From positions 676,506 through 702,831 of the forward strand of contig MU646373.1 in assembly GCA_026770585.1 (NCBI GenBank): a stretch of 26,326 bases of DNA. The letters run 5' to 3'. Shown here piece after piece: positions 1-25,870 of the stretch (position 1 is the stretch's first letter; each line of letters begins with the position of its first letter). The position numbers and the translations under genes are program-made. This DNA comes from Baffinella frigidus (taxonomy: Eukaryota; Cryptophyceae; Cryptomonadales; Baffinellaceae). The notes beneath the pieces are model-generated. The model had not been told where the DNA came from. It ran no database searches and was given only the letters and a program-made list of their open reading frames with translations.

Positions 1-73
1 CCCCCCCCGAGTAATGATGTCTTTTGACCGTCAGTGCTTCAGGTGGCGCAGGGCACACGTTCCTGAATCCTTC

Positions 74-270
74 ACCCCTTAACCCTAACCCTCAACCCTC
101 AACCCTGAACCCTAAACCCTAAACCCTGATTCCCAAACCCTAAACCCTGACCTTTAAACCCTAAACCCTAAAACCTAAACCCTAAACCCCAACCCCCCTT
201 TGGAGCAGCCGGCGCTGGTATATTCGTACACTAAACCCTGACCACCAAACCCTAAACCCTAAACTCTAGT
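74..270. repeat. Degenerate CCCTAAA telomere-type tract, with exon A echoes
   Basis: Interrupted CCCTAAA and CCCTGAA heptamers run from 74 to 190 and 233 to 268. They are internal, not a chromosome end, since coding exons lie beside them. Partial copies of exon A's 5' edge are embedded at 209-231 and 270-323. Confidence 0.8.
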
Positions 271-492
271 CGGCTCTGGCGTACTCATGCATCTGGAGCG
301 TGCGGTTCCACATGGGGCAATCCGAAATAGCTTATTGCGGGCCTGGAGCGTCGGGGTTCGTGCTCTAGAGACCCTACGGTAGGACATCCCTAGGGAACTG
401 GGATTTTCCTACGGGAGTCAATAGACGGCCTGCACGCTTAAAGTGTACATCCAATAAGAATTCTCGTGGTGGCCATGCTCATGAGGCAACTT

Positions 493-674: not shown

Positions 675-773
675 TCAGCGCTGGCGTATTCATGCATCGG
701 GAGCGTGCTGTTCCACATGGGGCAGCCATCCGTGGCCCTCACCTTCATCCAACGCGCCCGCGACATCCGCGAG
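675..773 (+). CDS. TPR gene exon A
   Basis: 33 codons, S-A-L-A-Y-S-C-I-G to A-R-D-I-R-E, after acceptor gtgcag and before donor GAG|gtgcct. It is a full TPR helix pair: the small residues and the Y/G/A pattern fit the family. Degraded copies of its 5' edge sit upstream at 209-231 and 270-323. The copy at 270 has drifted and is not expected to be used. Confidence 0.75.
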
Positions 774-1552
774 GTGCCTATCTAACCCCGCCGAGTATTC
801 ATGATGGATACGAATTTGGGGGTCTCCGATCTGAGTTGCAATGAAAATTACCACACTGTAGATCTTGGTTTGGGACGTGATCCAGGTGTGTATTTCCTCC
901 TCCCTCCTGCCTCCTCCCTCCCTCCTCACTCCTCCCCCCTCCCCGCCTCGGGCCGTTGGATCGACTGTATTCGGGGTGACTGTATTCGGGGTGGGGCGCG
1001 GTGACGTAGTTTCAACCTTTATATACGACTCTTATCGTATATGACGTACATATATGTATTGCTATTGTCGTAAAGGGGCGAAGTGACGTAGTTTCAACGT
1101 ATATATTCTGCTTTTGTCGTATAGAACGTATAAATATATGGCTTTTGTCGTATGTAACGCTTACCAACTCATCTGGGCAGGCGAGTCTGGGGGAGCTGCA
1201 CATGGACACGGGGCTACTGTACAACAACATGGGCGCTTGCTTCGAGATGCTCGATCGGGTACCGCAGGGTAGAGAGAGAGAGAGAGAGAGATAGAAAGAG
1301 AGAGAGCGAGAGAGAGAGAGAGGAGAGTGAGAGGGGGGGGGGGAGAGAGAGGGGAGAGAGTGAGAGGGAGAGAGATGCGCGACCGGGTTACCAAAATTAT
1401 ACTGATAGAGGAACACATCGAAGAAGTTACAAGTATAGAGGAACCAAAGCCAGAAGTTAAAATCATTGTAGAGGAACCAATCCGCTCTACAACAACATGG
1501 GCGCTTGCTTCGAGATGCTCGATCGGGTACCACAGGGTAGAGCGAGAGAGAG

Positions 1553-1595
<43 letters not shown>

Positions 1596-4500
1596 AAGCG
1601 AGATAGAGAGGGAGAGAGGGAAAGAGAAAGATAGAGATTCTCGATCAGGTTCCTTCTTCTTCTGTTCTCTAGTACTCTGGATGCAGGTCCTAAGTAAGCC
1701 CTTGAGCCTTGCGTTGAGCGATGCTCAATCGGGTACCTTCTAGCTCTGCCTGAGTTTTATTCTGGCTCGCCTAAAAGTATTTCAGAACGTACATCCAGTA
1801 CAAAAGGGCGAACGAAAGCCGTTAGGACGAACCAGAATAAAACCCAGACAGAGCTAGACCTTTATCTGCTGATTTAGGACTCCACGCCTACACGAGGCTG
1901 CACGGAACCAGTTTGGAACCTGGGACTCTGGGGACGTAATTCGCATGCGGACGTGTGTATGTTCATATGTAGGCGTAACCTCTCTAGACAAATACCCGAT
2001 TTTGTTAAAAGCAATGTTTCCTCGTTCGGGTCTAGAGAGTGGACGACGCACCTCCCGGAGTCCCTGGGACGGTGCTGGCTGGCTGGAGCCCCCCCCCCTG
2101 CCCCCGCCCCCCCCACTCCATATCTTTCTCCCTCCTTCACTCCCTCCCTCCCTCCCTCCACCCTCCTCCCTCCACCCTCCTCTCTCCTCCCTTCTCCCTC
2201 CACCCTCCTCCCTCCTTACTCCTCCCTCCTCGCACCTCACTCCTCGCACCTCCTTCCTCCTTCCTTACTCCTCGTACCTCACTCCTCCTTTCTCCCTCCC
2301 CGCCAGCCGGTCCGTTGCCGCACGCGGGTGGCGACAAGGTGACTGGGCGCCAATGCACACGTCAGTTTTGGTATCGGTTGGCTCAACACCCCTCAACACA
2401 TACATCATATGCCATAAACCCTAAGCCCCCCCCCCCCCGGTGGGGCTCGGCACGTGGCTACCATCTAGCGCTGTTTTGGTATCGGTAGTTTGAACACCCC
2501 CTCACACATACATCATATGGACTGTGAGGTGTTACACCCCGTCAGTCAGTCGGGTGGCGCACGAGGGTGGCGACAAGGTGACAGGGACACCACATACACC
2601 ATATGGACTATGGGGGTCATGTGGACTGTGAGGTTTCGCTCCCCGACAGTCAGACGACGCACGCTGGTGGCGAAACCCCCGCGGGGCGTGCCGCGAGACA
2701 CACATGAAGCCTACGCCGTTGGCGTGTTTACTCTGGGGCGTGGCACGAGGCGCACATGAACCCGAACCCCCAAACAAGGTGACGGAGGCGATCGAGAGCT
2801 TCCAGCGGGCGCGAGACGTCTTCGCGTACGAGCACGGATTGTCCCACCCGCGCACTGCCACGGTAAGTTGACATTCTCCCACAAGTTGACATGCTCTCAA
2901 AGTTGACACGCTCCCGCTACTTCCCCGCCACGTGCCGTGCCCCATGCCCCATGCCCTCCCCCTCGGGGGGTTGTCCCACCCACGCACTGCCACGGTACCC
3001 CCCTTCTCTCCCACCCGCGCACTGCCACTGTAAGTTGACATGCTCTCAAAGTTGACATGCACCCGACCGCGCACGAACCTCGCGTGGGCTGAGGTTTTGG
3101 TGTGGGTTGCAGGTTATGAGGCACATCGCGCGGGTTACTGAGGTTTTCGGATGTCGGTTGTACAGGTTATGAGGAATCTCGCTGGGGTCACTGAGGTTGG
3201 TGTCGGTTGTGCAGGTTATGAGGAACCTCGCGCGGGTCAAGAACCGCCGCTTCGACTTCAAGGTCCCGCCACCCCCTTCTTTGCTACTACAAGTACCCGT
3301 TGAATGTTTAGAGAATTTGTATGGGAATTGGACGTGCTGCACTACGGAATTCCGTAGCGACTTCAAGGTCCCGTCACCCGCTGTTTTTCTCGCTAGAGAA
3401 ACTGCGTGTTTGAGGGTGGGCGACCTAATTCCGGCGTCAACCTAATTACTGCATTCCGTAGGGTGCTCCGGTATGCAATCCAGTAGGGAGACACTGAATG
3501 CTGGAATGAGGTTGACGCCGGAATTACGTCGTCCACCCTTACTCGGAGCACAGCCAACATGGCCATCATGCCTACCCTCCCGAGGAGACCTCGATCGACT
3601 AGGTTTCGGAGTTGAGAGTTTGTCTGTCTTGTGTAGGGACAGCTCTATGAGTGGACCTACGCGACTACACCCAACCTCGCTACAGAGAGGAGTGCTGAAC
3701 CGGCTCGCGTGGTTGTTTCTGTTGAATGCCGCCCCCCCCGAGCCCTCTGGAGATACAGTCCCGTGTAGGATGGCCGGAGTCACGTTACCACACCACGGTC
3801 ATCCCCACACGGTGGGCTTTGAGGGATTCGGGTTCCATAGATTTAGCGGTAACGTGACCAAATTTGCACTAGAAAATTCTTAAAAGTTAACTGCTCACAG
3901 GGTTAGTTGACTTTTGATGAAAGGTCCGTAGTCCACTGTGTGGTACACGGGACTGTATCCCCAGAAGCCCACCACGTCTGCGTGGATCATGAGAAACCGC
4001 CTCCCCCTAGGACCCTACAGTAGGCCGATGCCTAGGGCCCTATGGCGGTCCTAGAGGGGGGGCGCTTTGTTATGGACCGGCTGGCTGCAAGCTGGAAGGG
4101 CTCGCGGCTGTCCACGTTTATTACACACACATCCGTAACGTTCGGACCACGAAAGCCATCTCTGTTTCCAACGGCATGACACGAGAGGGCGTGCGAGACT
4201 CCTTCCCAGGCGTGACTCTCAGCACCGGTGCGGATGCTGATGCGCGAAACATCAACAGGTTGTTTGGGAGGTTCGAAAGCCGACGCCGTGCCCGCCATCG
4301 CTGGTGATTTCCAACCACGTGACCCGAAACCCGATACCCGAAATCGTAATCCGACACCCGACACCCGAAAGCCGTGCCCGCCGTCGCTGGTGCGTTCCAC
4401 CTCCCCATATTATCGACGAACAATTTGAGCACTCTGGAGCGAAAAAAACTCCAACCCGTGCCCCAGAGTATGTTTGCTCTGATGAGGATTCCCCCTTGAT

Positions 4501-4968
4501 TGTCCAAGAACAGCCAATAACGTTTGACCTGACGCGCTCTTGTACATCCTTCACATCGAAACGTGAAGGAGAAATGCCACAGCTTTCTTCCGTGAAGGTT
4601 GCTATCCCTTAAGTGGCGAGGCGGTCAAAATTAACCGCCAAGAGGTCCTAGGCAGGTCCTAGGGCCCTACGGTAGGGCGTATGAGCCTTCTCGCCACTTA
4701 AGGGATAGTAACCAAGACGTTACTGCCACGTCCCGAAATTAGTACCGGGCTGTAAGAAGGCGGTACACAAAGTTACAAGACGGTACAAAAAGTTACTACC
4801 GTCACGTCCAAATAAAGAGTCCATTTAATATATATCGTATCTTGGTACGCAGAGTGAAACAAGATTTTGCTGAATCGTGAAATGTGGCGGCAGGTCGGGA
4901 ACGACGGGGCCAAGAAGAAGAAGAAGGGCGGGAAGAAGGGTGCCAAGGGTGCTAAGAAGAAGAAGTGA
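675..4968 (+). CDS. TPR-repeat protein, 3' five exons (5' end outside window)
   Basis: Joined exons 675-773, 1181-1258, 2779-2862, 3215-3262 and 4894-4968 give 127 residues in one continuous frame, all junctions in phase 0, ending at TGA 4966-4968. The reading contains two tetratricopeptide units of the kinesin-light-chain type (ALAYSCIGSVLFHMGQ..., then LLYNNMGACFEML...EAIESFQRARDVF), then the helix-A start of a third (HPRTATVMRNLARVK), then a basic tail of Lys, Gly and Ala. TPR units are protein-binding helical pairs, so a scaffold or adaptor role is likely, but no partner can be named. No start codon is visible; the gene enters from the left edge. Several exon edges are echoed in adjacent introns. 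It converges with the minus-strand glycosyltransferase gene, with about 890 bases between the stops. Domain type is confident; function and exact homolog are unknown. Confidence 0.8.
774..1180 (+). other. Intron A-B
   Basis: Holds a short CCTCCCTC-rich tract (895-945), a direct repeat of 'gacgtagtttcaac' (1003 and 1084) and AT-rich sequence. No gene seen. Confidence 0.6.
1181..1258 (+). CDS. TPR gene exon B
   Basis: 26 codons after acceptor tgggcag; the core reads DTGLLYNNMGACFEMLDR, the first helix of a TPR unit. Donor CGG|gtaccg. It joins exon A and exon C in phase 0, and the second helix of the repeat is supplied by exon C. The 3' edge is repeated four more times in the following intron. 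Confidence 0.8.
1270..1732 (+). repeat. Tandem copies of exon B donor edge separated by GA microsatellite
   Basis: The 3' edge of exon B with its donor recurs at 1372-1386, 1488-1526, 1634-1648 and 1718-1732, each followed by GT. (GA)n tracts occupy 1270-1380 and 1541-1625. The copy at 1488 is nearly exact over about 45 bases. Confidence 0.85.
1740..1857. mobile_element. Inverted-repeat element, family E, 118 bp
   Basis: Ends ctagctctgcctgagtttta and its complement at 1857; arms about 30 bases. A related, interrupted copy is at 8283-8598. Confidence 0.8.
1858..2778 (+). other. Rest of intron B-C: CT-rich tract and acceptor echoes
   Basis: CCTCCCTC-rich low complexity at 2090-2310. Two copies of a segment with gttttggtatcggt...acatacatcatatg (2362-2410 and 2472-2519). 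Echoes of exon C's 5' edge, gcgacaag|GTGAC, at 2332-2344 and 2571-2583. Confidence 0.65.
2779..2862 (+). CDS. TPR gene exon C
   Basis: 28 codons: EAIESFQRARDVFAYEHG then LSHPRTAT, the classic kinesin-light-chain-like second helix and HP.TAT linker. Donor ACG|gtaagt is the only near-consensus donor in the window. The acceptor is the weak acaag|GTGACGG; two upstream echoes (2339 and 2578) carry the same acaag|GTGAC edge, which supports this start. Confidence 0.8.
2863..3214 (+). repeat. Intron C-D with donor and acceptor echoes
   Basis: Exon C's 3' edge is repeated at 2971-2994 (followed by gtaccc) and 3008-3029 (followed by gtaagt). The acceptor and first bases of exon D recur at 3113 and 3166, spaced about 52 bases. 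'agttgacatgctctcaa' also recurs. Confidence 0.85.
3215..3262 (+). CDS. TPR gene exon D
   Basis: 16 codons, VMRNLARVKNRRFDFK, completing the HPRTAT|VMRNLA TPR helix. Acceptor gtgcag; two echoes of the acceptor and exon start lie upstream at 3113 and 3166. Donor AAG|gtcccg, with a donor-edge echo at 3357-3367 that repeats gacttcaag|gtcccg. Confidence 0.75.
3413..3540. mobile_element. Inverted-repeat element, 128 bp
   Basis: Arms gggtgggcgacctaattccg / its near complement ending cgtcgtccaccctt. No coding capacity. In intron D-E. Confidence 0.75.
3747..3966. repeat. Spaced inverted repeat
   Basis: ggagatacagtcccgtgta at about 3749 faces tacacgggactgtatcccc at about 3947; an inner pair gtcacgttacc / ggtaacgtgac lies at about 3779 and 3848. 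It could be a larger decayed element. Confidence 0.6.
3986..4076. mobile_element. Inverted-repeat element, family B
   Basis: Decayed ends (catgagaaaccgcc ... gcgctttgttatg) around an internal ctaggaccctacagtaggc / tgcctagggccctatgg core. Relatives at 5468-5582 and 6386-6498. Confidence 0.65.
4077..4893 (+). other. Rest of intron D-E
   Basis: Contains CCCGAAA/CCCGACA heptad-like tract (4320-4380) flanked by two copies of gcccgcc.tcgctggtg, a family A element (4602-4708) and a short tandem repeat ggtacaaaaagttac (4752-4800). No exon recognised. Confidence 0.55.
4602..4708. mobile_element. Inverted-repeat element, family A, 107 bp
   Basis: Perfect ends ctatcccttaagtggcgag / complement; core ggtcctagggccctacggta. 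Best preserved member of the family (others 5699-5801, 5959-6061, 15257-15361). Confidence 0.85.
4894..4968 (+). CDS. TPR gene terminal exon E, lysine-rich tail
   Basis: After acceptor gcggcag, 24 codons then TGA. The peptide is VGNDGAKKKKKGG followed by more KK/GA blocks, with every lysine AAG. Phase 0 with exon D. Basic low-complexity tails of this kind often act in localisation or binding to acidic partners; here that is inference only. Confidence 0.75.
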   Translation, partial: VGNDGAKKKKKGGKKGAKGAKKKK

Positions 4969-5467
4969 GAACATGCAAGAACAAGCGAGCTAAGTAGAAG
5001 AAGTGAGGCCTGCGAAGAACCGGGGAGTCAATTTGAGGGCGTCGTTTCGACAAAAGAGGGTAGTTGAGAGTGTGTTTGGCTTGTGTACGGACGCGAGAAG
5101 CAGTTGAGAGTGGGTCTGTCGTGTGTACGGACAGCTAGTGTGTGAATCACAGAAAGTAGAGAGTTAGTGCAGTTGCACGCCGTACAAGGACGAAAAAACT
5201 TCGATGGAATGGTCCGAATAAAAACAGAGCAGCACAGGCGGTCCCCGAGACCCGCATACCTTCCTGCCTTTTGTTCCTTACACCCGTTGTTCCGTACACC
5301 CGTTGTTCCTTACACCCGTTGTTCCTTACACCTTTTGTTCCGTACGCCCGTTGTCCTGTACGCCCATTGTTCCGCACACCCATTGTCGGACGTGCCGGCT
5401 CTAACAAGAGAAGCTTTTGTTCCGCACGCCCGGTGTGCCGTACAATGTACACCCTTTCTTCCTTACA

Positions 5468-5582
5468 GGGGTACCTCGCTCATAAGAAACCGCCCCCCCC
5501 CCTAGGACCACCATAGGGCCCCAGGCATAGGCCTACTGTAGGGTCGTAGGGGTGGGCAGTTTCTTATGAGCGAGGTATCCCT
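5468..5582. mobile_element. Inverted-repeat element, family B, 115 bp
   Basis: Ends ggtacctcgctcataagaaa and its complement ending cgaggtatcc; inserted into the 17-base minisatellite, whose units resume on the other side. Confidence 0.85.
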
Positions 5583-5698
5583 GTACACCCTTTGTTCCTT
5601 ACATCCGTTGTTCCGTGCGCCCCGTGTTCCGTACACGCACTCACCGCTCGACGTGTACCCTGGAGGCAACCGTTGTATGGTGCCTCGGTGGCACCAAA

Positions 5699-5801
5699 TC
5701 CCTTGAGTGTCCAGTAGGCTCATGCACCCTACGGTAGGGCCCTAGGACCTGGCTAGGACCTATTGGGGGTCAATTTTGACCACCTCGCCACTTAGGGGAT
5801 A
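5699..5801. mobile_element. Inverted-repeat element, family A
   Basis: Same core as 4602-4708 in opposite orientation (ccctacggtagggccctagg ... ggtcaattttgacc); ends decayed (cccttgagtg / cacttaggggat). Confidence 0.8.
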
Positions 5802-5854
5802 TATAAAAAGGCTCCTCCCCTGCCTCACAGTGGCTACCACGCCCCTCTCTACGC

Positions 5855-25870
<20,016 letters not shown>

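Follow-up and report, generated by a model that had tools for sequence, protein, structure and literature searches.

Partial copies of exons lie in the introns of unrelated genes in the stretch of DNA analysed here (26,326 nucleotides; hereafter the window). An initial annotation had proposed that copies of a 5' edge always stand upstream of their exon and copies of a 3' edge always downstream, and that duplication centred on exon-intron junctions is the main mode of intron growth. The locus raises the question of whether these copies record a process directed at splice junctions or one that acts on non-coding DNA at large, in which the exon decides what is kept and what can still be recognised.

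Genes and exons of the window

The window belongs to a 382-Mb assembly of a eukaryote in which much of the sampled sequence is N. Among 20 random 10-kb stretches, 15 were all N, three more were over half N and two were usable, with long N stretches thus in 18 of the 20; the window itself has an N run at 10774-10884. Exons were set by reading frame, splice sites and homology, which gave 20 exons with 40 edges, one of them a stop codon with no donor. The plus strand carries the final exons of a TPR gene, A-E (675-4968), which when joined match TPR_12 in Pfam (7.9e-18). On the minus strand lie the GT31 exons m1-m5, the unassigned exon m6, and the GT10 exons m7-m14 plus m9b. Joined, m1-m5 match Galactosyl_T (Pfam, 5.3e-18) and m9-m14 match Glyco_transf_10 (Pfam, 1.5e-26), the matched part being m10-m14, while for m7-m9 and one additional exon, m9b (13360-13414), agreement with GT10 relatives was judged by eye. 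A Pfam search with m6 returned no match, and Rfam and spliced-leader pattern searches gave nothing useful. Two donors are irregular: m1 (25792) requires GC, and exon B (1267) requires GG or a shifted donor. At ~20560-20640 the plus strand has a frame that by eye resembles an ankyrin repeat; an exon here would run counter to the strand of its neighbours.

Table 1 Exons of the window, partial copies of their edges and an intervening repeat element. Percentages are identities.
Feature	Position	Strand	Remark
Window	G000:C71:676506-702831		in 382-Mb assembly
TPR exon A	675..773	+	in-frame TPR_12
Copy of A 5' edge, upstream	269..319	+	90%
TPR exon B	1181..1267	+	donor GG or shifted GT
Copy of B 3' edge with donor, downstream	1485..1538	+	96%
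Second, weaker copy of B 3' edge	1708..1737	+	83%
TPR exon C	2779..2862	+	
Copy of C 3' edge, downstream	2968..2997	+	93%
Second copy of C 3' edge, ~30 nt of intron included	3009..3060	+	92%
TPR exon D	3215..3262	+	
Copy of D 5' edge and intron, upstream	3075..3135	+	within 49-nt tandem array 3075-3239
Copy of D 3' edge, downstream	3358..3390	+	85%; 10 exonic bases, under length rule
TPR last exon E	4894..4968	+	stop codon; no echo
GT31 exon m1	25792..25870	-	GC donor; no echo
GT31 exon m2	25288..25413	-	no echo
GT31 exon m3	24441..24501	-	
Copy of m3 5' edge, upstream	24719..24766	-	90%
GT31 exon m4	23929..23999	-	no echo
GT31 exon m5	23531..23625	-	no echo
Exon m6	20917..21195	-	less certain; no Pfam match
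Copy of m6 5' edge, upstream	21263..21323	-	80-86%
GT10-gene exon m7	15149..15226	-	
Copy of m7 5' edge and intron, upstream	15386..15465	-	85-90%
Copy of m7 3' edge and intron, downstream	14861..14948	-	94-97%
Second copy of m7 3' edge	15062..15089	-	96%
GT10-gene exon m8	14403..14501	-	no echo
GT10 exon m9	14129..14267	-	no echo
GT10 exon m9b	13360..13414	-	no echo
GT10 exon m10	12938..13010	-	no echo
GT10 exon m11	12417..12482	-	10-nt copy of end past adjoining element (by eye) only, under rule
GT10 exon m12	10979..11032	-	one internal copy, 10932-10952
GT10 exon m13	9396..9475	-	
Copy of m13 5' edge, upstream	9595..9640	-	96%
Second copy of m13 5' edge	9793..9827	-	91%
Further short copy of m13 5' edge	10333..10352	-	95% over 20 nt, 9 exonic; under rule
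~103-bp repeat element between m13 and nearest copy	9487..9589	+	at least 39 other genomic places
Copy of m13 3' edge, downstream	9139..9183	-	89%
Second copy of m13 3' edge	8852..8909	-	81%
GT10 exon m14	8702..8786	-	
Copy of m14 3' edge, downstream	8598..8637	-	88%
Second copy of m14 3' edge	8468..8529	-	90%; intron match on to 8413

Exon edges are copied outward and in direct orientation

We compared each exon with the window by BLAST and scored an edge copy when a match had at least 28 bits, at least 12 exonic bases and a position within 1.5 kb. Partial edge copies were found on the same strand as their exon, 27-858 nt off and each outside its source edge; inverted matches of window exons were only 15-24 nt long and more than 9 kb distant. 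By this rule 11 of the 40 window edges carry a copy (A5', B3', C3', D5', m3-5', m6-5', m7-5', m7-3', m13-5', m13-3' and m14-3'), or 12 with D3'. This falls short of the at least 15 edges first counted; the difference may lie in shorter copies that were noticed by eye (C5', extra B copies, m13 near 10425), and the earlier labels (X2, E2b and the like) are not mappable one to one onto our exons. The accompanying descriptions were accurate: copies occur on both strands, in the TPR gene on the plus and beside the GT exons on the minus strand, and number one to five each among the window and 16 kinase exons.

The comparison was extended to 28 exons from elsewhere in the genome, 18 kinase and 10 chaperonin. 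The kinase loci were 18 of 108 matches, picked as short multi-exon matches before their sequence was inspected. Exon bounds in the first 16 were set by hand (frame, acceptor, donor) after the copies had been seen, and those of the chaperonin exons and of L055 and L056 are raw profile-match bounds. The 48 exons yielded 63 partial edge copies, seven exon-internal copies being excluded, and all 63 lay on the outer side, none being inverted and none comprising a whole exon (against one half, p ~1e-19; counting each of the 40 edges once, 9e-13). A check for wrong-side matches among window, kinase and chaperonin exons found none, so the proposed polarity is real and extends outside the window. Copies accompany 40 of the 96 edges: 11 of 40 in the window, 5 of 20 in the chaperonin exons and 24 of 36 in the kinase exons (20 of 32 edges in 16 exons and 4 of 4 in two exons fetched after that count). 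Among 36 exons, those of the window and of the first 16 kinase loci, 20 start with GT after the acceptor, so that mRNA junctions often read AG|GT.

The copies had also been said to decay with distance. Across 49 copies the trend was not significant (rho -0.16, p 0.26); it did appear within an edge, where similarity was greater for the nearer copy in 19 of 24 pairs (p 0.007).

Simulated neutral duplication reproduces the polarity

As a control for polarity, pseudo-exons were placed randomly in non-exon DNA. Matches fell on the right and the wrong side 925 and 888 times in window introns, 1685 and 1570 times in intergenic DNA, and 1008 and 964 times in the kinase and chaperonin loci. Because pseudo-exons give close to 50:50, the polarity of real exons is not a scoring artefact, and its strictness stems from the exon being functional. 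We then simulated neutral tandem duplication in which exon-breaking events alone were rejected. These simulations, which are simple and unfitted (uniform events, random sequence, chosen parameters, few replicates), gave 0-5 wrong-side against 6-156 right-side matches per parameter set. Polarity by itself is therefore no evidence for a splice-aware process, and the view that it is a special signature is not supported.

Local direct duplication in introns and intergenic DNA

At a threshold of 32 bits and within 1 kb, direct duplications take up 26% of the bases in exons, 22% of those in introns and 27% of those between genes, and inverted duplications 0%, 2.5% and 14%, respectively; by the same thresholds the window holds 80 direct and 11 inverted pairs. 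The two random 10-kb stretches that could be used had direct coverage of 0.53 and 0.20 and inverted coverage of 0.04 and 0.05. Among 20,883 intron bases of the window, which are all non-exon bases outside 4969-8467 and may include unrecognised exon or intergenic DNA, the exon echoes account for 872, any local direct duplication for 4,366 and short-period tandem repeats for 2,901. With so small a share, and with such duplications similarly dense in intergenic DNA and introns (0.27 vs 0.22), exon echoes are not supported as the main source of intron length. The echoes are thus what can be seen at exons of a process that acts more widely.

We consider it probable that short direct duplications are born adjacent, often with filler, in all non-coding DNA, and that purifying selection retains those after which the exon is still in one piece. 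Stretches of tens to a few hundred bases would be duplicated repeatedly in place, in direct orientation. The likeliest route that we infer is the repair of staggered breaks, in which fill-in of the overhangs would leave two copies of a target T; in some cases captured DNA X (pieces of mobile elements, telomere-like repeats) would lie between them as T-X-T. Were T to lie across a splice junction, one T would stay on the exon and the other would fall outside it. The outer T would stand upstream of the exon where the junction is an acceptor and downstream where it is a donor. Selection would act as the filter that removes exon-breaking duplications, so that in every case the intact exon is the inner of the two. 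As introns drift while exons are conserved, truncated exon copies would stay recognisable for longer than copies of intron within intron.

Reach into the intron and preference for junctions

A different reading is that breaks or insertions cluster within ~10 nt of splice sites, each copying the adjacent exon edge, and that introns grow outward from there; nucleosome linkers at exon borders or the edges of co-transcriptional R-loops are possible settings. We hold this to be rather unlikely; the extent of the copies bears on it directly. Similarity continues past the junction into the intron at p<0.05 in 30 of 49 copies, several of which are low-complexity, with ~18-25 trusted by eye; clear junction-spanning duplications are those of m7, C, D, L040, L044 and L046. 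The other 19 copies have no significant similarity past the junction, and two of these are 96-97% identical to the exon (L048-3', L046-3').

Intron reach was 10 nt or less in 33 of 49 copies by BLAST extent and in 28 of 49 by anchored extension. The anchored figure differs from that in simulations with 60-nt units (26 of 104; Fisher p 0.0002, and p 0.004 for copies of at least 88% identity), as junction targeting would predict, and short reach is also more frequent than in 120-nt simulations. However, other simulations with units of 30-60 nt placed 0.29-0.67 of copies within 10 nt (n 6-20), approaching the real value, and short reach was accordingly dropped as proof of junction targeting.

The frequency of echoed edges also speaks for a preference. 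Divided by the duplication coverage of non-exon DNA, it was 1.6 in the window, 1.9 in the chaperonin loci and 3.4 in the kinase loci, where coverage is underestimated because the loci span only ~2.1 kb, against 0.37-0.90 in simulations; relative to neighbouring DNA, edges are thus echoed ~2-9 times more often than the simple neutral simulations give. Matched for age (edge copies of at least 90% identity against non-exon duplications of at least 80%), the ratios were 0.9, 0.5 and 2.2 in window, chaperonin and kinase loci, and 0.21-0.28 in the two simulations where the ratio can be formed. The age-matched raw edge rate, on the other hand, exceeds non-exon coverage only in the kinase loci (0.34 v 0.156; window 0.12 v 0.139; chaperonin 0.05 v 0.092), and the same kind of duplication is found in non-exon and intergenic DNA, both of which count against targeting. 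Introners elsewhere favour nucleosome linkers, according to the available part of a report on them (PMC9860276), which is consistent with a preference of this kind. A preference for junctions is thus possible and somewhat favoured by the ratios of edge frequency to coverage. In its fuller form, in which introns would grow preferentially at splice junctions through recurrent breaks a few bases from exon borders, with repair adding filler and an edge copy to build stacks of truncated exon ends, we likewise hold the idea to be rather unlikely.

Spacers and elements between copies

Adjacent or near-adjacent tandem copies are seen in the array of exon D and in L033 (5 nt apart); elsewhere spacers stand between the copies. 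Of 49 spacers, 18 include DNA that recurs at other loci within a 139-kb genome sample. The 9487-9589 element, whose other places are 84-93% identical (40 of 1,057 candidates scored), separates exon m13 from the nearest copy of its edge, with 8 and 5 nt left at the two ends, and an element at 13972-14097 directly abuts a 20-nt copy on either side, giving T-X-T in both cases. This anatomy would fit staggered-break repair with captured DNA, as far as that process is set out in the accessible text of PMC8355091.

It could also be produced by MITE-like elements that insert at exon edges and duplicate a long target of 20-60 bp. The two elements that each stand between copies and the 18 spacers with DNA from other loci are what this proposal would predict; yet a flanking direct repeat at p<0.05 was found in only 7 of 31 element rows (a few rows being the same element twice), mostly distant from the element ends, and 31 of 49 spacers have no match in the comparison set, itself small. 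Long target duplication was for the first of these reasons abandoned as a general cause. Since most element copies lack the T-X-T arrangement, insertion by itself is not a sufficient explanation of the echoes, and we judge it improbable as their source. Two elements upstream of m13 at one point appeared to be in opposite orientation; alignment shows them to be direct. Families of at least ~40 copies exist, the examined ones lying inside introns or between genes. One further element, of 163 bp with inverted ends (484-646), has at least 39 other places at 89-94% identity (40 of 5,814 candidates scored) and, by eye, a possible TA target duplication.

The copies might instead be functional, serving as mutually exclusive exons or in recursive splicing, and some had been noted to keep usable splice sites. 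AG is indeed kept in 23 of 26 copies and GT in 17 of 23, and with 20 of 36 exons starting with GT, an AG|GT copy upstream might be used as a recursive site. Retention nevertheless does not differ from that expected at the overall identity (AG p 0.24, GT p 0.62), with no signal of selection to preserve or destroy splice sites in the copies by this comparison. Mutually exclusive exons need whole duplicated exons, whereas no copy spans both edges among the 48 exons, and offsets are a multiple of 3 in only 15 of 49, which together make a function of this kind very unlikely. Pieces of exon might also have been placed by random local transposition or by templated insertion, with which copies 73-773 nt from their source and common unrelated spacers would agree. 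This predicts either side and either orientation, whereas 63 of 63 copies are direct and outer and none is inverted, against ~50:50 for pseudo-exons, which makes it extremely unlikely and supports tandem direct duplication, as first proposed.

Comparison with described processes

It had been suggested that no named process leaves such a signature. Tandem duplication across an intron-exon boundary has, however, been described in a potato gene, whose first intron also carries a second tandem duplication (PMC4974935, from the portion of the paper at hand). This is the closest described event, a direct duplication crossing the boundary in both cases; in potato a new intron arose from a single event, which reads were used to check, whereas here many older copies lie within existing introns.

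Small tandem duplications from staggered-break repair are stated in the available text of PMC8355091 to be the commonest human insertions below 100 bp, and plant data are cited there. They share direct orientation and locality with the exon-edge copies (none inverted for 48 exons; 80 vs 11 pairs). The mechanism was shown in mouse cells, while the present genome offers its putative footprint only, often with filler between the copies.

Introners, in the part of PMC9860276 available, resemble the present case in that elements with inverted-end repeats occur in introns here too; they differ in being the intron itself, with DNA-transposon kinds that make 3-9 bp target duplications, whereas here the repeated unit is the edge of a host exon. 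For telomeric-repeat insertion at breaks, the accessible text of PMC2246262 gives target duplication as a minority outcome (6 of 130 in rodents, 4 of 25 in primates). Telomere-like repeats lie beside copies in many introns here, a link by position only.

Judged by titles and the openings of abstracts, the open-licence literature yielded no description of genome-wide exon-edge copies. As far as the available text goes, the potato case is a single event in one gene, whereas in the present sample copies accompany 40 of 96 exon edges, so that a single genome densely documents the ways in which introns have gained sequence. With the conserved exon as a reference for dating each copy, the entry point of new intron DNA becomes directly testable.

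The telomere-like CCCTAAA repeats are scattered in introns of the window (62-196, 17038-17214, 17868-18118, 19188-19418) and of kinase loci L039-L054. Read in the direction of the gene they are more often C-rich than G-rich, with 172 vs 35 motif counts over 16 kinase loci (C-rich excess in 11, G-rich in three, equal in two) and, in the window, 11 to 0 in the TPR gene and 60 to 32 around the GT exons. Within 80 nt upstream of the acceptor the C-rich motif occurs in 7 of 36 exons and the G-rich motif in one; downstream of the donor the numbers are 2 and 4.
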